IMG/VR virus record: IMGVR_UViG_3300027759_000219
Span: 1 to 36,419 of that record
DNA from: a virus
Reading direction: 5' to 3' (one strand)
DNA: 36,419 bases
In this document: positions 14,099 through 29,666 of the stretch, one piece after another
Layout: the number at the start of each line of letters is the position of its first letter
Position numbering within the stretch: the stretch's first letter is position 1
Translations under genes and position numbers: made by a program
The notes under the pieces: generated by a model
The model's database searches: none
What the model saw: only the letters and a program-made list of their open reading frames with translations
What the model was told of the DNA's origin: nothing

Positions 14099-15619
14099 TC
14101 AAGCTCCCATCCAAGAAGTTTGTAAACTATTAGTTGATTGACTACGGCGCTTTGGTTCTGCGTACTCTCGGTGCGCGACGGGGAATGCAAACGTCACGCA
14201 TATAGCATCTGCTGCATCAGGCGAGGCTAACCCCCGCGCTTTCATGTCTTTCTTAGACTCTAAAAAGATCGTACCTTTAGAGTCGGGCTTCATTACAGGT
14301 GATATTAAATCAGTTTTAAGTATCCTGTCACTAGGAATCGACGCAGTTTTGAGCCATTGACGCATATCACCCCACATCTGAGCCCTTAAATTACCATACA
14401 TAAGCGGATTTTTTGATTTATTTCCAAAATTGACCCCCCGAATCTTGTATCGCTGCTCTTTTAGGCGGTCTACAACGCCCCCGCCCACGCCGCCTTCGTC
14501 GATCACGACCAACGCGGGCTTATATTCTTCGATTGTTTCGATTACATGGCCGACTACGGTCATCGTATCGTCGCCTTTGAAGCGTTTGATGCCAATAATG
14601 TCACGCCCTTGGCGTATGGCGATTACGGTTGAGTCAGAACCAAAGCGCGCAGGGTCAACGCCCACGATAATGGGGGCGGACAGGTCTTTGAGCCGTGGCC
14701 GACGCATGGCCTCATCCACAATCAAGCTTGAAATAAACTGATCATCACCGGCAGACGGGAAGTCACCGTAGACCTCAACCGCAGCTTGTGATGAATCGGC
14801 GCCATATTCGTCGATGATCTGCTGATATACCGCTTTGTCCGTGCCCTCAACCGTCCTTGCGTCCACAATTTTGGTGTTCCAAAAGTCACGCTTGGAGTTG
14901 TGGCATTCATAGAAGTAACCGGTGTTGCGACGCGGGTTGGAGAACGCTAACCAAAAGCGGTTTGGTGTGTTCTCAGTAAAGAATCCAGCAGTCACCGCCC
15001 AAATGGCGTCGTCAATACCGGACGCCTCATCAAAGATCACCATCACGCCGTCGTAGTTGTGAACACCTGCATACGCATCAGGGTTCTCGCTTGACCACAA
15101 GCGTCCTTCCACCGACCAATAGCGTGTGCCTTTTTTTAAGTCACGCTCAACCAGTTCGGTAATCCACTTAGCGGGCATGAGTCGCGTTGCGCTGACTTCA
15201 AACCAATGTGAGTTAAGTGACATGGCGAGCCACTTAGTAATCTCTGCCCAGGTGACCGATCGTAATTGGCTCTCCGAGTTTGCCGATATGATGGTGGTCG
15301 AACCAATTCGTGTGGAGAGCATCCATAGGGTTAGCCAACTGACCAACGCCGATTTGCCAATCCCGCGACCGGATGACGTTGCCATCCTGAACGTGTCAAA
15401 GTCAATCTTGCCGCCGTTTTGCTTAATGTGGGCGGTCAGGTCAGACAAGACCTCGCGCTGCCATTTGCGTGGGCCGGAGAAGTCAGCCAAGGGTGTGCCC
15501 TTCTGACCCCAAGGGAACGCAAACAACACAAACGCTAACGGGTCATCCTTGATCTTGGGCGACCAAAGCGCCGACATTAGACGCATCTCTTCGGCGGCGC
15601 TGTACTGTGTCGTTTGCAT
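14099..15619 (-). CDS. Terminase large subunit (packaging ATPase-nuclease)
   Basis: A 506-residue TerL. The ATPase has a Walker A GRGIGKS at 84-90 and Walker B VMVIFDEAS at 192-200 with Asp197 and Glu198. The RNase H-like nuclease has IIVGVDPARFGSD (Asp322), ALVVIDEGGVG (Asp374) and the terminal acidic motif SPDAADAICVTFAF (Asp468/471). All three metal-binding acidic positions are present, so both domains look active. P22 gp2 is 499 residues. The start lies 77 bases inside the TerS gene; later in-frame ATGs at residues 12 and 15 would still overlap. With TerS and the P22-like portal this indicates headful packaging by inference. Confidence 0.95.
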   Translation of the reverse strand: MQTTQYSAAEEMRLMSALWSPKIKDDPLAFVLFAFPWGQKGTPLADFSGPRKWQREVLSDLTAHIKQNGGKIDFDTFRMATSSGRGIGKSALVSWLTLWMLSTRIGSTTIISANSESQLRSVTWAEITKWLAMSLNSHWFEVSATRLMPAKWITELVERDLKKGTRYWSVEGRLWSSENPDAYAGVHNYDGVMVIFDEASGIDDAIWAVTAGFFTENTPNRFWLAFSNPRRNTGYFYECHNSKRDFWNTKIVDARTVEGTDKAVYQQIIDEYGADSSQAAVEVYGDFPSAGDDQFISSLIVDEAMRRPRLKDLSAPIIVGVDPARFGSDSTVIAIRQGRDIIGIKRFKGDDTMTVVGHVIETIEEYKPALVVIDEGGVGGGVVDRLKEQRYKIRGVNFGNKSKNPLMYGNLRAQMWGDMRQWLKTASIPSDRILKTDLISPVMKPDSKGTIFLESKKDMKARGLASPDAADAICVTFAFPVAHREYAEPKRRSQSTNSLQTSWMGA

Positions 15620-16028
15620 CCGTGGGTTCCATATCTATAGTTAACCGTTGTTCGGCTTGCTCAAGCGCAGTAATAATGCTGATCTGTTGCGTCACATCGA
15701 CCTGCACTTGCTGCTTGGCCACCCAATCGTGCTTGTGTTTCAGAAACTCTAACGCCATCTTAGCGTCGCCGCCGACCGCTGCGTCGTACACGACTTGCGA
15801 CATTGTCGCCTCCGCTTCCGCACGGCCTTGCATCGCCGCTAACTCGACCACAGGGTCTAGCTGGCAGAGTTTACGAAACTCTTCCGGCATCATGCCAGCG
15901 CGCAGCGCAAGTGCGTCGTTAGACAAGCCTAACTTTGCGGCTTCGTAGACGCGCAACAAACGCGACTCGGTGGCGCGGACTTCGCGGGGTGTGAAGTGTA
16001 GAGATAGCATTTTGCGATTGTAGGTCAT
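15543..16028 (-). CDS. Terminase small subunit
   Basis: A 161-residue protein (P22 gp3 is 162) directly upstream of TerL. Residues about 23-50 (LRVYEAAKLGLSNDALALRA) form a likely helix-turn-helix that would recognise the packaging site. GDAKMALEFLKHKHDWV near 85-101 is a motif common to phage small terminases (ALxFLKxKxxW), followed by a Gln/Val oligomerisation segment and an Arg-rich tail (RRRRDASN). The start is uncertain: ATG at 16028 or 16010, neither with a clear Shine-Dalgarno; the first has the CCTACATGA context shared with the divergent gene at 16785. Confidence 0.85.
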   Translation of the reverse strand: MTYNRKMLSLHFTPREVRATESRLLRVYEAAKLGLSNDALALRAGMMPEEFRKLCQLDPVVELAAMQGRAEAEATMSQVVYDAAVGGDAKMALEFLKHKHDWVAKQQVQVDVTQQISIITALEQAEQRLTIDMEPTDANDTVQRRRRDASNVGALVAQDQG

Positions 16029-16039
16029 GTAGGCAATTT

Positions 16040-16045: not shown

Positions 16046-16096
16046 TAAAAAAATTTTGGTGGTCGTGTTGCCATTATTTTTATAAAAAAAATTTTG
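16044..16096. repeat. Pair of A/T-tract repeats, TATA-A(7-8)-TTTTG
   Basis: Two near-identical blocks at 16044-16058 and 16081-16096 each run TATA, seven or eight A, TTTTG. A-tracts of this kind bend DNA. They flank the TerS upstream region and lie about 37 bases apart, between three and four helical turns. Confidence 0.55.
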
Positions 16097-16133
16097 AGCG
16101 TGAACCCTACGCTAGCGGCTGTGACCGGCAGGG

Positions 16134-16151
16134 CCCTCCCCCCCCTACCCC
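16134..16151 (-). other. G-rich tract with G-quadruplex potential
   Basis: The minus strand reads GGGGTAGGGGGGGGAGGG, which supplies four G-runs of three or more with loops of one to two bases. It sits between TerS and the repeat array. Whether it folds is untested, and homopolymer length in the assembly may be imprecise. Confidence 0.45.
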
Positions 16152-16187
16152 AAGGATTTGCTTTTTGGCCGAGAGCCTGGTAGCCGA

Positions 16188-16236
16188 GTTGTTGGACAAC
16201 CCACAATCTCACTAAGTCTTAGGTTGTTGGACAACC
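16188..16236. repeat. Two copies of a GTTGT-TGG-ACAAC dyad
   Basis: GTTGTTGGACAACC occurs at 16188-16201 and 16223-16236. Each is a dyad with arms GTTGT and ACAAC around TGG; the second copy extends to six-base arms (GGTTGT/ACAACC). The first CTCACTAAGTCTTAG repeat lies between them and abuts the second copy. The arrangement resembles paired operators for a dimeric regulator or an origin-binding protein. Confidence 0.7.
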
Positions 16237-16401
16237 GACAACAGCCTGGTGCAGTGCAGCATTGTGCAGTGCAACATAAAGGATTACTTAATAACACTCA
16301 CTAAGTCTTAGGACAAATACTCACTAAGTCTTAGCCACTCACTAAGTCTTAGGGCTTACAGGCTCACTAAGTCTTAGCCACCAATACTCACTAAGTCTTA
16401 G
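16208..16401. repeat. Iteron-like array: six exact copies of CTCACTAAGTCTTAG
   Basis: Identical 15-base copies begin at 16208, 16297, 16320, 16338, 16363 and 16387, all in the same orientation; the last five are spaced 18-25 bases apart. Each contains CTAAG-T-CTTAG, a perfect 11-base dyad. The spacers are unrelated and only 3-11 bases long in the tight cluster. Direct repeats with AT-rich DNA beside them are a hallmark of iteron-type replication origins; an operator cluster is the alternative. Between copies one and two lies a further direct repeat, GTGCAGTGCA at 16249-16258 and 16264-16273. Confidence 0.85.
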
Positions 16402-16450
16402 CCTTCCTAAATATAATTTAGCCGAAAAGCCAGCACACCAGGACTATTTT

Positions 16451-16472
16451 GTAGGTCATGTAGGTCATGTAG
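16451..16472. repeat. Tandem GTAGGTCAT repeat
   Basis: Two full tandem copies of the nine-base GTAGGTCAT are followed by GTAG. The related GTAGGTCATGTAGG overlaps the TerS start (16020-16033), and the reverse complement TCATGTAGGTCA overlaps the start of the divergent gene at 16777-16788. Confidence 0.65.
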
Positions 16473-16537
16473 CCATGCAGAAAAAATCGCAACGGGCTCT
16501 TCAGCGTGTGCGCCAACGCTCCGACAATTGTGTGCCC

Positions 16538-16625
16538 TAAAGTAATACTTAATATTTTACAGATTTTAAATATATATCTAATAAATGACTATCTAATACT
16601 ACAAGTCATTCAACAGACTGATTTA
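16538..16625. other. AT-rich stretch next to the repeat array
   Basis: About 90 bases contain very little G or C (for example TTTTAAATATATATCTAATA near 16564). No gene is seen. Beside an iteron-like array this is where strand opening would be expected if the region is an origin; otherwise it is simply promoter-upstream DNA. Confidence 0.45.
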
Positions 16626-16636
16626 TAAGCATTTTC

Positions 16637-16690
16637 TGTCGGTCTTTTTGTTGTTTTTGCTGACCGACCAAATAACCCACATGACCGACA
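16637..16690. repeat. TGTCGGTC / TGACCGAC inverted and direct repeats
   Basis: TGTCGGTC at 16637-16644 is the inverse of GACCGACA-like blocks at 16661-16668 and 16682-16690 (TGACCGAC both times). The first pair could form a hairpin with a 16-base T-rich loop, or all three could be protein-binding half-sites upstream of the early promoter. Confidence 0.5.
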
Positions 16691-16714: not shown

Positions 16715-16744
16715 TTGCTAGAAATCTCTGTACACTGCTATAAA
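16715..16744 (+). promoter_or_regulatory. Sigma70-type promoter for the rightward early genes
   Basis: -35 TTGCTA (16715-16720) and -10 TATAAA (16739-16744) are spaced by 18 bases, 40 bases before the first start codon. TGTACA occurs on both sides of the -10 box (16729 and 16749), a possible further operator. The location behind the repeat array and ahead of a coupled gene run supports it. Confidence 0.62.
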
Positions 16745-16784
16745 TTCATGTACAATAGAATCTCTTACTTAAAAGGTGACCTAC

Positions 16785-17003
16785 ATGAAAAAGTACAAAT
16801 TAGATATGACGCGCGACGTTGATTTTGACGGCGAAAGTTATATGTTTAACCTTTTACGTGGTTGGCGTTTCTATAACGACGCTGTACACGTGCGCGGTTT
16901 TGACACCTTAGCCGAGATACGCGCAGCGGCTAAAACTGACGTTATACCCTGCGCGTGTCGCGAATGTGCGCCCGCTGCCGAGCCACTTTTCGCTGCCGTT
17001 TAA
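16785..17003 (+). CDS. Early hypothetical protein, 72 aa
   Basis: The ATG at 16785 is preferred over an upstream in-frame GTG because AAAAGGTGA lies five bases before it. The protein begins MKKYKLDMTRDVDFDGESYM, has an aromatic middle (LLRGWRFYNDAVHVRGFDTL) and a Cys pair in CACRECAPAA near the C-terminus, which might bind metal together with an additional ligand. No family is recognised. As the first gene behind the strongest rightward promoter it is probably made early in infection. Confidence 0.72.
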   Translation: MKKYKLDMTRDVDFDGESYMFNLLRGWRFYNDAVHVRGFDTLAEIRAAAKTDVIPCACRECAPAAEPLFAAV

Positions 17004-17382: not shown

Positions 17383-17446
17383 GATTCACGACACCATCGC
17401 AGCGCTGTTAATGTGCCTCGCTCTGCTACTGGCTATTTTTATGTAA
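17375..17446 (+). CDS. Tiny single-span membrane peptide, 23 aa
   Basis: A complete ATG-to-TAA frame whose start overlaps the end of the previous gene by eight bases. The product is MNKIHDTIAALLMCLALLLA followed by IFM: a short polar N-terminus and one hydrophobic helix. No clear Shine-Dalgarno is seen, but translational coupling is possible. A second similar peptide closes this operon at 18948. Too short for homology-based confidence. Confidence 0.5.
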   Translation: MNKIHDTIAALLMCLALLLAIFM

Positions 17447-17469
17447 CACCACACACTAAGGTAAACAAA

Positions 17470-18159
17470 ATGACACAAGTACACTTAACTTTAAAATCAT
17501 CAAATGTAAAAACAGGCGCGATTCCTGTATCAACTACCGGGCGCGCATCATGCCCAACGTCTTGCCCGTTTCAAGCGGCCGGATGCTACGCTGACAACTA
17601 CGGGCTGAATTTTCTGTGGAACCGTGTGACCAATGGTACAGCGGGCACCGATTGGGCGACATTCTGCAACACGATCACGACGCTGCCCGACGGCCAATTG
17701 TGGCGCCACAATCAAGCGGGCGATTTGCCACAAGACGGCCACGGCCGCATTGACGGCCATTTGATGGGTTACCTAGTCGCGGCCAATATTGGTAAGCGCG
17801 GGTTTACTTACACGCATCACGCGCCCGAATTGGGCGACAACGCCAAGTACATTAAGGGCGCCAACGATTGGGGCTTTACTGTCAATTTGAGCGCTAACAC
17901 GCCCGCACACGCTGACACGTTGGCCGCGCTCGAGATCGCGCCCGTGGTAGTCGTCTTACCATCAACGCAAACCACTAACACCACAACGCCCCAAGGGCGC
18001 CCGATTGTCATTTGCCCGGCCACCACACGCGACGACGTCACTTGTGAGTCATGCCAACTATGCGCGCGCGTCGATCGTAAAGTGATCGTAGGTTTCCCCG
18101 CGCATGGCTCGGGCGCCAAAAAGGCCGAGCAAGCGATTACCTTTTGGAGCAAAAAATGA
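17470..18159 (+). CDS. Cys-rich phage protein of the Gp88/DUF7227 type
   Basis: The start at ATG 17470 has AAGG nine bases upstream. The 229-residue protein has an N-terminal cysteine cluster ASCPTSCPFQAAGCYADNYG (Cys28, 32, 39) and a C-terminal cluster CESCQLC near 192-198 with a preceding Cys in VICPATTRDD. This arrangement and the aromatic/His-rich centre (FTYTHHAPEL) resemble the phage families Gp88 and DUF7227, which are of unknown function. The Cys pattern suggests an iron-sulfur or zinc site. The stop overlaps the next start (ATGA). Confidence 0.72.
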   Translation: MTQVHLTLKSSNVKTGAIPVSTTGRASCPTSCPFQAAGCYADNYGLNFLWNRVTNGTAGTDWATFCNTITTLPDGQLWRHNQAGDLPQDGHGRIDGHLMGYLVAANIGKRGFTYTHHAPELGDNAKYIKGANDWGFTVNLSANTPAHADTLAALEIAPVVVVLPSTQTTNTTTPQGRPIVICPATTRDDVTCESCQLCARVDRKVIVGFPAHGSGAKKAEQAITFWSKK

Positions 18160-19013: not shown

Positions 19014-19035
19014 AACGCCCTACGGGGCGTTTTTT
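19014..19035 (+). terminator. Rho-independent terminator of the early operon
   Basis: AACGCCC and GGGCGTT form a seven-base stem around a TACG loop, followed by a T-run to 19035. It ends the rightward operon and lies across the 3' end of the convergent primase gene. On the minus strand the stem is followed by TGTTTT, so it may also stop leftward transcription weakly. Confidence 0.85.
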
Positions 19036-21332
19036 ACAGGCCTCAAATGAGTCACGGCCGCAAGTGGTGTACCTTCGCGCACAACAATACCCTCGGCCAT
19101 CGCGCGCAAGTCGCTCTTGCTGCGCCCTGTCATGTCAGGGGCACAGTAAACCTGTTTTTTAGATACATACTCGCGCGACGACACGCGCCCCATGTCTACC
19201 CATTGGCACTCCATTAGCGCGTGAAGGAGCGCGCCTTGGCTGACTTTGTAGGTGCCGGGGGCGTTGATTGATAGCGTGTCACAGATCGCATGGAAGGGCG
19301 ACGCGATCACGCCACTAGCAAACAAGCCCTTACGCTCACGGATCATATCGGCCAAAAATGACTCATTGGCACTCATACCCTGTTCGACGAGCGTCAATTT
19401 GAATTCAGTCATCGGGGGCGCGGCGCCTGGGTTAAACGCGCTCACGTCACGCGCAGCCAACCACGCAGCACACGCACTCACGCCTCCATTGTCAAACCAT
19501 TTCCACATCGCTGCCCCCGCCTCTGAAGTCATACGGGGCGCGGTCGATTTAATCGCAAACCAGCGACGGTCTTGTGAATCTAGGGTAATAGGTACGGGGT
19601 CATTAGAAAATGCCAGCACTAGCAGTCTGTTGGCCATATCGTACGGGTGCAAGCCCTTACGATTGATCGACAGGTACTCAGGGGGCGCCGCGATCACGGG
19701 TTTAAGACGATTAGCAAGCGCGCGGCGATCCTTGGCATCGGGCTCACGGAGTTCGTTCAAAATTAAAATCTCAGACTCAAGCGCGTAATTAAACTGCGAC
19801 GACATGGTGTCGGAGTCTAGCAGCCCTCGGTTAGTCGCGTTCTCACCACAAACACCCCAAATAAAGGGGTGATACATAGTGTCTTTGCCTGACCCTTGCA
19901 CACCCGTGTGTAGGATCGCGTGGTTAATCTTGCGCTGCGGGTACTGCAACTTGAACGCCATCACGTCAAATATGTGGTTAAGCGACTCGAGGTCGGGCAC
20001 CAACCGCTGGCAATGTTTAAGCCACGGGGTGACATCGCCCTTAATCGCTATGGGTCGGGCATCCCTCCATCTGTTGCCATAGACGTCACCGCCACGCGAC
20101 ACCAGTACGGTTTCACCCGCTGCGTACGTTATCCCCACAAGCGCAGGTGCGCCGCATTTTTGGCGTAACTCATCAAAGCAGACAGATGCCTCAATGTGAC
20201 GCCCCGTTCGAGCAGACTTACACACAATATGGCGGTAGAGCGCGTTAAACGTGCCACGGCTGATCTCGCGCCTATCCTGCATATCAAAGTAACTATCATC
20301 GCTTTGAATGTACGCAAACCGCCCAAACCATTCGGCCTTTTCGACCCGTCCTAATTCGCGCTGTTCGATCTCAGATTGGCGTTTTTTGACGTCATCGGGA
20401 AAAGCCGCTGTGGGCGCGATAATCGAATAGGTTTTAGCCATAACTGACGCGAGTAATTCATCACGCAAACCTGGCGCGGCACTCGGCCCGCCTTGGCCTT
20501 CCACCCATTCAAGGAAGATATGGCTATCTAACTGCAAGCAATGGCTGTGCAAGCAACAGTATGCGCGCATAGACGGGTTGTAACGCCCCTGCGGGTTGCC
20601 GTCCGTGTGTTCGTGTGCATTGGGGCAAACCACGCCCGCCCAGCCTTCGCTATTGGGGCGACTGATGACCAAGCTATTCTCGGCCAACCACGCAAAGATG
20701 TTATCGGTGCCATCATCCTCTACTTTAATCGGCCGGTACGCGTTGGATTCGACGGGGCCGGAAGTCACGCCGAAGGCACCCATAATTTGCGGCAAACTAA
20801 ACTCACGCTCGGGGTGAAATTCCGTCAGGATTGATTTAAACCCTGCGCGCTCGGGCTTGAGGTTAACGCTACCAGGTATCCTAAAATTCCGCACCGCGTT
20901 GGTGGCACCCTTATCGGTGTAACCGGCCTCGGCTATCGCTTTGATCGCTGCGCTGAACTCTTGATGCGTGGGTTGATCGTCTAACGCAAAGGTGTAGCCC
21001 CATTGAAAATTATCCGGTGAGGTTTCGATCTTCCAAGTGGGCTCAAGCGGAGGTGCTTTGGATTTGGTGCCCACGTCGTCAAGGACAAGAAAGGCAACAT
21101 GGTCGCAGTTGTGGATTGATGCGCTGGGTTTGCTTTTAAACCGATCGACAATAAAAGATGCGGTATTGGCGTACCATGCGCCGCCCTCTTTGTACTCATG
21201 GGGGTAAAAAGCTGGCCATGTCGCCTTGATCGTGCCATCGGCGTGTTGTTCTTTTCCAACAGGCTTTTGCTTGACTAATAGGCAAGTTTCACCCTCGGGA
21301 GCGACTTTTGAAATATAATCGACGAAGTCCAA
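19020..21332 (-). CDS. Primase/SF3-type helicase replication protein
   Basis: I take the TTG at 21332 as the start: AAGGAG lies seven bases upstream, whereas the longer frame would run back through a hairpin into the polymerase gene. The 770-residue product has an N-terminal archaeo-eukaryotic-primase-like region (FLVLDDVGTKSKAPPLEPTW, then NFQWGYTFALDDQ, and RNFRIPGSVNLKP), a Cys/His-bearing middle (VCPNAHEHTDG, YCCLHSHC) and a helicase with Walker A GVQGSGKDT near residue 480, then ILILNELREPDAKDRRALAN and VLAFSNDPVPI, as in DUF5906/D5-type proteins. It would prime and unwind DNA for the phage polymerase. Confidence 0.88.
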   Translation of the reverse strand: MDFVDYISKVAPEGETCLLVKQKPVGKEQHADGTIKATWPAFYPHEYKEGGAWYANTASFIVDRFKSKPSASIHNCDHVAFLVLDDVGTKSKAPPLEPTWKIETSPDNFQWGYTFALDDQPTHQEFSAAIKAIAEAGYTDKGATNAVRNFRIPGSVNLKPERAGFKSILTEFHPEREFSLPQIMGAFGVTSGPVESNAYRPIKVEDDGTDNIFAWLAENSLVISRPNSEGWAGVVCPNAHEHTDGNPQGRYNPSMRAYCCLHSHCLQLDSHIFLEWVEGQGGPSAAPGLRDELLASVMAKTYSIIAPTAAFPDDVKKRQSEIEQRELGRVEKAEWFGRFAYIQSDDSYFDMQDRREISRGTFNALYRHIVCKSARTGRHIEASVCFDELRQKCGAPALVGITYAAGETVLVSRGGDVYGNRWRDARPIAIKGDVTPWLKHCQRLVPDLESLNHIFDVMAFKLQYPQRKINHAILHTGVQGSGKDTMYHPFIWGVCGENATNRGLLDSDTMSSQFNYALESEILILNELREPDAKDRRALANRLKPVIAAPPEYLSINRKGLHPYDMANRLLVLAFSNDPVPITLDSQDRRWFAIKSTAPRMTSEAGAAMWKWFDNGGVSACAAWLAARDVSAFNPGAAPPMTEFKLTLVEQGMSANESFLADMIRERKGLFASGVIASPFHAICDTLSINAPGTYKVSQGALLHALMECQWVDMGRVSSREYVSKKQVYCAPDMTGRSKSDLRAMAEGIVVREGTPLAAVTHLRPVKNAP

Positions 21333-21356
21333 TGCAATACTCCTTAGTTGTTTTGA

Positions 21357-21384
21357 AGCCACCCTAGCCGGTGGCTTTTTTTTT
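21357..21384 (+). terminator. Plus-strand intrinsic terminator between two minus-strand genes
   Basis: AGCCACC and GGTGGCT enclose six bases and are followed by nine T on the plus strand. The surrounding genes (primase and polymerase) are both on the minus strand, where the A-run comes before the stem, so this cannot terminate their transcription. It could stop antisense transcription or serve as an mRNA hairpin. Confidence 0.7.
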
Positions 21385-23281
21385 ACTTGCCGTACCGAGT
21401 CATTGTTTGAATCTCGGCGTCTAGTGGCAGACCTTGCGCCCACGGGGGCGGCGTACACATAACTTGCTTTAACCGCTCGGTGACGGTTTCAGGCTGATCG
21501 GTTTCAATAACAATTTCGTCGTGAACGTGGAGTACAACGTCGTCAAGGGCTCGGAGAGCGTAACGTAATATGTCGTTCGCTGCGGCTTGGGTGACATTTT
21601 CACAGGCCAAGCCACGCCATAGTCGTGCGCGTGGCCACTCTTTAGCGTCAACGGCGGGCTTCCATGCTGCTTTGGCGTATGAGATACCATCTTCTTCAAG
21701 TTTGGCGTAGGGGTAACAGAGAATTCTGCCCGAGGGTAAAGCGTACCATAAGTGAACACCATCAAACAGGTATGTAACCCTACCCGCCACGATTTCTTTG
21801 CCCTTATTTCGCATCGCAATCATGTAGCCAGTTTCCAACTCTTGCCAGTACCTGACCGCCCATTGGTTAGCGCGGCGCCAGGCGTCCACGGTGCGCTGCG
21901 CGTCTGATTCGGTCATGGTTAACCCATACGCTCGACCCATTGCAGAGAACGCGCCAATACCCCCGCCAAACCCGCAAGCCAAGATTGCGACCTTACCAAT
22001 CTGACGCTGATCGGCGGTCACTTGGTCTTCAGGTATCTTGTACATGGCGGCGGCTTCTCTGACGTAGATGTCACGCCCTGACCTAAACACGTCTAGCACG
22101 TCATCGCCGCGCCCTGACAACCACGGGGTCATGCGCGCTTCGATCTGAGCCCAATCGGCTACGACCAAGGACTTACCTTTGGCGGGTATGATCGCGGGGC
22201 GCAGCATCCCTTTTAAAACGTCTGTGACCCTCTTACCAAACTCGGGAACGATGGAACGTCCGAGAACCATGCTCTCTCTAACAGACTCGGGCGCTTTGGC
22301 ACATTTTCTTGTGAAGTTGTGGACTTGAGCGCCGTAAGAAGACGCGCGGCCTGTTGCCGATCCTCCGGCAAAGACAAACGCGCCACGGACGCGACTATCT
22401 TCCACATCTGCCAAGTCGCGTAAGCGTGAGAACTTCGCAACGCTCGACGCCCAAAGATCATCGGCACATTGGATAACTTGCTCAACGTCGGGCGGTAAGT
22501 CTTCGACCGCGAGTAGGTTTGCGCGAACGCGCTTGTCAATCGAATACTTTCCATCTTCAATCTCCATTAGTTTTAAATGTTCTGTACTTAATCTTTCTTT
22601 AACCCATTCGCGCATCTTCGGCGAGCGGACTGACGTGATCGCGCCATTGGTGACGGTTCTGACAATGGACTGTATGTCCGCGAGTTCGATGGCCGCGTAA
22701 GAGATGGCTGCGCTGGCAAGATGCACATCCACCAGTACACCTCGGTCGTTGATTTTTTCGTTGACATGATAGTCCTCCAGTTCTTCATCTGATAAGGGGC
22801 GTAGGCTTTGACTGACGGCGCGCATGGCGCGCACGTCTTGCTCACAGTATTGCACCATTTCAAGCATCAGCGCAGGGTCGTCTTTAAAGGGCGGTACACA
22901 CAGCGCACGGATAAGCTGCGCGCCACGGTAATCTTTCTTCATGCTTGCACCGGCAAAGCGACCCACATCCTCAAGTGAACCAGGCGCACAGTTGGCGCGC
23001 GCTTGTGTTGCGGTGCAATAGAACTGCTCTAGCTTGAAGTTGATCTGTAAGACGTACCAAAAGATCAAACGTTCAAAGGCTGCGTTGTGGGCGTAGATCA
23101 GGCCGGTGTGATCGCGTACACGCTTGGGGAAGGGCTGCGTAGGTAACCACGTCACAACGTCTTCATCGTCAAAGGCGTAGCTCATGCACAACACGTCGGT
23201 CGTTGCGTCTTGGGCGTAGTTGTAGACACCGTGACGTTTAAGGTCACAATAGCTACGGGTTTCAAAGTCAACCCATAGCAT
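21383..23281 (-). CDS. Family A DNA polymerase with 3'-5' exonuclease
   Basis: The start at ATG 23281 gives MLWVDFETRSYCDLKRHGVY, placing exonuclease motif I (Asp5, Glu7) at the very N-terminus. Exo II is YAHNAAFERLIF and exo III YCEQDVRAM, so proofreading should be active. Polymerase motif A is VVADWAQIEARM (near residue 375), motif B RQIGKVAILACGFGGG (near 427) and motif C VLHVHDEIVIE (near 589). All catalytic Asp, Lys and Arg positions expected for family A are visible. At 632 residues it is compact, like other podovirus polymerases. No clear Shine-Dalgarno; the start overlaps the upstream gene by 14 bases, suggesting coupling. Confidence 0.93.
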   Translation of the reverse strand: MLWVDFETRSYCDLKRHGVYNYAQDATTDVLCMSYAFDDEDVVTWLPTQPFPKRVRDHTGLIYAHNAAFERLIFWYVLQINFKLEQFYCTATQARANCAPGSLEDVGRFAGASMKKDYRGAQLIRALCVPPFKDDPALMLEMVQYCEQDVRAMRAVSQSLRPLSDEELEDYHVNEKINDRGVLVDVHLASAAISYAAIELADIQSIVRTVTNGAITSVRSPKMREWVKERLSTEHLKLMEIEDGKYSIDKRVRANLLAVEDLPPDVEQVIQCADDLWASSVAKFSRLRDLADVEDSRVRGAFVFAGGSATGRASSYGAQVHNFTRKCAKAPESVRESMVLGRSIVPEFGKRVTDVLKGMLRPAIIPAKGKSLVVADWAQIEARMTPWLSGRGDDVLDVFRSGRDIYVREAAAMYKIPEDQVTADQRQIGKVAILACGFGGGIGAFSAMGRAYGLTMTESDAQRTVDAWRRANQWAVRYWQELETGYMIAMRNKGKEIVAGRVTYLFDGVHLWYALPSGRILCYPYAKLEEDGISYAKAAWKPAVDAKEWPRARLWRGLACENVTQAAANDILRYALRALDDVVLHVHDEIVIETDQPETVTERLKQVMCTPPPWAQGLPLDAEIQTMTRYGK

Positions 23282-29255: not shown

Positions 29256-29418
29256 GAACATGGCCACGCTGACTGAAGAAGAGATCATGGCTATGCTTGA
29301 GTACGAACGCACCCACGAACGTAGGGTGAAGATGTTGTTGCGCTTGCACCAGCGCGCGAACTCTCTGCGTGTGGCGCGTGAGCGTATTGAACTGTTGAAA
29401 GAGGGTCTGCGGCCATGA
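29227..29418 (+). CDS. Small helical protein, 63 aa
   Basis: Begins MQITWRKLNENMATLTEEEI with a strong GGAGGAAAGAT ribosome site. A predicted helical hairpin (MLEYERTHERRVKMLLRLHQ). Its start lies inside the preceding 53-residue gene and its stop overlaps the winged-helix gene by ATGA. No family recognised. Confidence 0.72.
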   Translation: MQITWRKLNENMATLTEEEIMAMLEYERTHERRVKMLLRLHQRANSLRVARERIELLKEGLRP

Positions 29419-29666
29419 GAACAGGCGACAAGATAATGACCTTTTGTGGCACACCTAAGACCGCGCAGCAACTTGCCGAGCATTGCAAGGTACAGCGCAG
29501 CAGCATCTACAGCGCGTTGGGTCGACTACAGATGAAAGGTCTGCTTATGCGCGTAGGTGATGGTGTAGAGCCAGCCACTTATGTACTGACCAAACCCACG
29601 AATATGCAGGTCTGCGAAAACTTGATGGTCAAACACGCCCATAACCCTTTTGGATTACGCCCATGA
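29415..29666 (+). CDS. Winged helix-turn-helix DNA-binding protein, 83 aa
   Basis: Begins MRTGDKIMTFCGTPKTAQQL. Residues about 16-47 (AQQLAEHCKVQRSSIYSALG, then RLQMKGLLMRVGDG) match a helix-turn-helix followed by a wing, the pattern of MarR/ArsR-like and replication-initiator-like small DNA-binding proteins. It is the only free-standing small DNA-binding regulator visible, so it is a candidate partner for the dyad repeats at 16188-16401; that link is pure inference. Coupled by ATGA to both neighbours. Confidence 0.78.
   Translation: MRTGDKIMTFCGTPKTAQQLAEHCKVQRSSIYSALGRLQMKGLLMRVGDGVEPATYVLTKPTNMQVCENLMVKHAHNPFGLRP

Follow-up and report, generated by a model that had tools for sequence, protein, structure and literature searches.

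What is the function of the repeat array that lies between the small terminase gene (terS) and the early genes of this freshwater phage? The window analyzed is an entire IMG/VR virus record of 36,419 bases, in which the leftward terS (start at 16028) and the rightward first early gene (start at 16785) are separated by 756 bp, the largest gap noticed in the list of open reading frames. The first-pass annotation had placed six identical 15-mers and two interleaved dyads in this largest noncoding region, and direct search confirmed all of them, with no other exact GTTGTTGGACAAC dyad in the window:

16188..16200, plus strand: GTTGTTGGACAAC dyad 1 (dyad search), holding on the minus strand TTGTCCAAC, which resembles the 9-mer family described below
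16208..16222, plus strand: CTCACTAAGTCTTAG 15-mer, copy 1 (repeat search)
16223..16235, plus strand: GTTGTTGGACAAC dyad 2 (dyad search)
16297..16311, plus strand: 15-mer, copy 2 (repeat search)
16320..16334, plus strand: 15-mer, copy 3 (repeat search)
16338..16352, plus strand: 15-mer, copy 4 (repeat search)
16363..16377, plus strand: 15-mer, copy 5 (repeat search)
16387..16401, plus strand: 15-mer, copy 6 (repeat search)

No further CTCACTAAGTCTTAG site with three or fewer mismatches occurs elsewhere in the 36.4 kb. Shuffled sequences contained on average 0.45 sites at this tolerance and none of 100 shuffles reached six, which rules out a chance origin of the copies, as the annotation had maintained. 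Their start-to-start spacings are 89, 23, 18, 25, and 24, the last four matching the 18 to 25 bases reported for the last five copies, and no helical phasing is evident among them. GTTGTTGGACAAC was not enriched at three or fewer mismatches (16 sites versus 13.6 expected), so the weight of this dyad falls on its two exact copies.

The distribution of the 15-mer was assessed in viral contigs with a search pattern of two CTAAGTCTTAG words no more than 33 bases apart. This retrieved 47 contigs, 45 of which contain CTCACTAAGTCTTAG; L017 and L037 matched the pattern by chance and were discarded. Thus, 45 other IMG/VR contigs carry the array in the same place, all within one podovirus family with a P22-type portal (by TerS/TerL); they were selected by the array itself, so their copy numbers are biased upwards. 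In all 24 whole array records, the 15-mer is confined to the terS-early gap, where 2 to 8 exact copies are separated by spacers that vary in both length and sequence. In one clade, the copies are of mixed orientation and one more stands alone at a distance of 520 bp, 9 bases ahead of the first early start codon. L040, a 92.9-kb contig (record G021) that is possibly a chimera, has one array only; its fuller relatives measure 37 to 39 kb. In 35 distinct loci, we counted 175 copies that match exactly and 18 that deviate at one base; none deviates at two. All but one of the 18 differ at position 9, a change that disrupts the 5-bp dyad. Fourteen of the 15 bases are therefore nearly fixed, whereas the dyad pair 9/11 is not; the CTAAG-T-CTTAG dyad highlighted by the annotation is perfect in the copies of the window but is not strictly kept in relatives, whereas CTCACTAAnTCTTAG is. 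Position 9 variation also led us to set aside an RNA-level role of the array, because it breaks the pairing; as RNA, the array folds more favorably than its shuffled versions (z of −4.7), as expected from the dyads, and no Rfam RNA or tRNA matched there. Clades with the 15-mer share 49 to 59% of TerS and 59 to 63% of the primase with the window. The 15-mer label forms one clade on the primase (88/87) and DUF2800 (100/99) trees and does not do so on the portal tree. The literature searched yielded no mention of the word.

Invariance of the 15-mer, with no two-mismatch copy in those loci, and its coincidence with one clade on the primase tree speak for the reading of the annotation, i.e., that the six copies are the iterons of the initiator and thus the origin proper. 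Iterons should be kept wherever origin and initiator are kept. We examined this in eight distinct loci that had been retrieved by way of their primase (at least 85% identical) rather than by the array, in which exact copies number 6, 4, 7, 3, 2, 6, 1, and 0. L231 (primase 85% identical) has no 15-mer within 4 mismatches but retains the C-rich block, the AT-rich stretch, and 9-mer-like words. L228 has one exact copy plus one with a single mismatch; L255 likewise has a single exact copy, and both retain the AT block. Overall, copy number ranges from 0 to 8 across relatives. The repeats are present in many related phages but absent or nearly absent in L231 and L228, which have the same core. Half of what it had named as evidence against its reading was therefore found, namely 15-mers missing from close relatives in which the origin core is conserved. 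Lost in L231 and almost lost in L228, the array is, as judged from these comparisons, not required by the family's origin, and we consider it very improbable that the 15-mers are the iterons. Other clades fill the same slot with arrays of GTTTAyGTAAAC or GTTAGTGnnCACTAACTTAG. Given these alternative words and the range of 0 to 7 copies in near relatives, we read the array as an accessory of the origin that is most likely regulatory and served by a putative binder. GC-rich GGCGGCCGAGTG-type repeats replace missing 15-mers in L231 (positions 100 to 290 of the terS-upstream region), L005, L009, and L036.

If the array is not the origin, where would replication start? The remainder of the gap and its borders hold the following elements:

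16019..16036, minus strand: 9-mers TGACCTACA and TTGCCTACA over the terS start codon (sequence and repeat search)
16450..16467, minus strand: left tandem 9-mer pair (TGACCTACA twice) of the proposed origin core (9-mer search)
16538..16597, strandless: AT-rich block (60 bp, 87% AT) that would act as unwinding element (index 509 in the region upstream of terS)
16673..16690, plus strand: right tandem 9-mer pair (TAACCCACA, TGACCGACA), the latter found by search and the former by reading the sequence
16729..16756, plus strand: candidate early promoter TGTACA-16-TACAAT, weak (2 promoter-like sites versus 2.1 expected)
16777..16785, plus strand: 9-mer TGACCTACA over the start codon of the first early gene (sequence and 9-mer search)

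A TerL scan yielded at least 594 relatives, and in most family genomes examined the top noncoding local repeat cluster lies upstream of terS and is built from a clade-specific word. The gaps follow a common plan, first noticed by eye and counted afterwards: terS, AT tract, C-rich block, array, 9-mers, AT block, 9-mers, and early promoter. Counting a fixed set of 9-mer words relative to the AT-richest 60 bp revealed that those flanking the AT block point outwards (159 minus and 20 plus on the left, 16 minus and 63 plus on the right; Fisher 3e-27, a value that overstates support, the loci being related and of overlapping ancestry). In the 15-mer clade alone, the respective counts are 53, 1, 5, and 25. 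Short repeats around an AT-rich element, as in iteron-type origins, are thus found, in the window at about 16450 to 16690. Palindromes such as ACTACTGTATACCTATACAGTAGT lie in or next to the AT block in several clades; the best palindromes near this block have arms of at least 8 in 20% of loci versus 4% of shuffles.

In the sister clade, the 9-mers are the DnaA-box words TTATCCACA (9 in gaps versus 0 elsewhere) and TTGTCCACA (41 versus 1), which likens these gaps to oriC-type origins. The 15-mer clade differs in lacking such boxes (0 TTATCCACA and 0 TTGTCCACA across 29 gaps), and no DnaA-type protein was found in the window. Some relatives encode a DnaA domain IV (PF08299) protein (L054, 31423 to 31719; records G026, G027, G028, and G034), which was not found in the 15-mer phages searched; the origin words of that clade may be its targets. 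The turning point in GC skew anticipated at the site did not appear, with no arm effect in the window (z of 0.4) and no consistent one in ten relatives; this is weak evidence either way because small lytic phages need no skew switch. Comparison thus backs the region that the annotation had suggested as a replication origin, through the AT block with its outward 9-mers, a covarying winged helix, and the DnaA-type boxes of sister phages, but shifts the probable core to the right of the array.

That winged helix belongs to the candidate initiator of the phage:

19020..21458, minus strand: primase-helicase, proposed initiator, in which an AEP primase is joined to an SF3-type helicase and a predicted winged helix at the C terminus (about residues 697 to 772)

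Its Pfam matches are DUF5906, above the cutoff, and RepB_primase, below it; the PDB sequence match is 6k9c/6k9e. Foldseek comparison of a model of moderate confidence (mean pLDDT of 68.7) retrieved NrS-1 (6k9c, E 4e-11), RepB′ (3h20, E 7e-6), and the SaPI5 primase-helicase (7ola, E 1e-3). The wing motif GRxxx pairs with the 9-mer of each clade: GRVSS with TGACCTACA, GRLAT with TTGCCTACA, GRLKS with TTGTCCACA, and GRVAS with TGACCCAAA. Scoring V/I versus L after GR against TGACC versus TTGYC 9-mers gave 13/2/2/16 in the first set and, in new contigs with the rule fixed beforehand, 12/3/0/12 (Fisher P of 3.7e-5, uncorrected for relatedness). A tree of the remaining primase places five independent switches, in which the wing is concordant in 3.6 on average and discordant in none; the corresponding sign test gives a P of 0.125, and five switches cannot give 0.05. 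The sister pair L251/L254 exemplifies such a change, with GRLKS turning into GRLAS alongside TTGTCCACA/TTGCCCACA into TGACCCAAA/TGACCTAAA. Hence, the 9-mer type seems to be matched by a few residues in the wing of the primase-helicase. The same winged helix was rejected as the binder of the 15-mer: its identity is 45 to 57% between 15-mer clades and up to 62% to a phage without the 15-mer, so it does not track this word, which further argues against the iteron reading.

Known replicons resemble this arrangement in part. SaPI-type origins (SaPIbov1, SaPI5 PriRep), reportedly described by Ubeda et al., flank an AT-rich stretch with short iterons, much as the window does with its 9-mers, and the primase-helicase model resembles that of SaPI5 (7ola/7pds, Foldseek E about 1e-3). 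Unlike SaPIs, the window is a main podovirus genome rather than a satellite, bears an added 15-mer array on one shoulder, and encodes an initiator that also has a RepB′-like primase domain. In both fold and sequence, the primase-helicase is best matched by the C-terminal region of the NrS-1 primase-polymerase, but the DNA polymerase of the window phage is a separate enzyme of family A.

The position of the array invites a different explanation, namely that the small terminase binds it as a packaging site (cosB or pac type). Two features bear on it:

15543..16028, minus strand: terS (small terminase), which opens the leftward late block and overlaps terL
16096..16165, strandless: C-rich block (GTGAACCCTACG...GGGCCCTCCCCCCCCTACCCC), candidate packaging/terS control site (identified by eye, with a counterpart in the relatives read)

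The terS product had no Pfam or PHROG match. A homolog is present in every array genome. Its AlphaFold model (mean pLDDT of 68) consists of three N-terminal helices followed by a long helix, and the best Foldseek matches include the PaP3 small terminase (6w7t) at a nonsignificant E of 0.3. The array always adjoins terS; in L045, both travel together while terL comes from another lineage; and in the unrelated phages L222/L224, a gene that overlaps terL is preceded by CACTAACTTAG-type repeats. Lambda cosB offers a precedent, with several R sites of roughly 16 bp in mixed orientation near terS, an arrangement of similar-sized sites that the arrays recall. Unlike in cosB, the 15-mer is invariant though about half of TerS has changed (TerS differs by 45 to 50% between clades with an identical 15-mer), and L231 has lost the array while keeping terS. 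TerS divergence is equal within and outside the 15-mer clades, and TerS was thus discarded as the 15-mer binder. Contig ends also cluster 0.5 to 1 kb upstream of terL, in 14 of 80 TerL loci (L055 to L134), but they spread over 400 bp rather than marking one cut, as expected for assembly breaks; these ends are either such breaks or genome ends. Furthermore, the C-rich block between terS and the array, present in the clades read, is a better candidate. We therefore deem packaging by way of the array decidedly unlikely. L207 and L214, from an unrelated phage, have TGTTTCACGTGAAACA, identical to the bacterial parS word, beside CACTAACTTAG repeats. The window encodes a DUF7227 protein at 17413 to 18159 (E 5e-86). 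In unrelated phages with CACTAACTTAG arrays, a similar Cys-rich protein lies near the array, as judged by eye.

Could the array instead serve transcription alone and take no part in replication, as an operator or titration array through which a phage or host regulator controls the two divergent promoters, those of terS and of the early genes? Sites that resemble dyads, occur in mixed orientation, and are freely spaced would suit an operator, as would the ability to be lost (L231). Phage DSL-LC05, of the proposed "Luchaoviridae" (PMC10611076), is similar in its TerL (68% identical) and in having a repeat cluster upstream of terS, but its repeat is ACCCAGTGGGTCA and, according to its record, it has a polymerase of family B and another primase. 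One copy of that repeat, as read from the sequence, is framed by hexamers of the early genes that resemble −35 and −10 elements. The master operator that the annotation offered as an alternative is thus possible, the extra copy of one clade just upstream of the early start codon being in its favor, but the window has no 15-mer so placed, and in most phages the array lies 300 to 500 bp from the early promoter. A conserved regulator was not recognized either. The 83-residue winged-helix protein (29415 to 29666) put forward as the repeat binder was found in just 5 of 11 array genomes and was rejected for not being conserved along with the array. No other DNA-binding regulator common to all 11, some of which are fragments, was recognized; proteins found in nearly all of them are packaging, portal, and replication proteins. 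A host regulon was likewise discarded: the GTDB genome collection contains CTCACTAAGTCTTAG just 31 times, one match apiece in unrelated genomes, with no pairs or arrays found in bacterial genomes. A purely transcriptional array is possible but on the unlikely side.

We lean, on moderate grounds, toward the terS-early gap being the phage replication origin combined with a divergent control region, in which AT block and 9-mers would form the core and the 15-mers an accessory array. The phage's own primase-helicase would bind the 9-mers through its C-terminal winged helix, then open the AT block at 16538 to 16597 and load the fork. The CTCACTAAGTCTTAG array would be a clade-specific set of multiple binding sites on the shoulder of this core that faces terS, where a putative sequence-specific protein may tune initiation and/or the neighboring promoters. 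A more speculative extension, which we consider unlikely, is that the shoulder array is an exchangeable "identity cassette": lineages would plug different dyad arrays, CTCACTAAGTCTTAG, GTTTAyGTAAAC, or GTTAGTGnnCACTAACTTAG, into the slot, and the site, hardly varying and read by a slowly evolving putative protein, would decide which coinfecting genomes are activated or excluded.

At least 594 environmental contigs identified by TerL share one gene order but differ in their gap words, and the origin recognition of an uncultivated phage family may therefore be readable from sequence. Within it, the 15-mer would represent an accessory array that has kept nearly every letter in phages whose proteins have half changed and that can nevertheless be dispensed with. 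Were the identity cassette true, the words in this slot would sort replicating genomes in a coinfected cell, in an abundant freshwater family.
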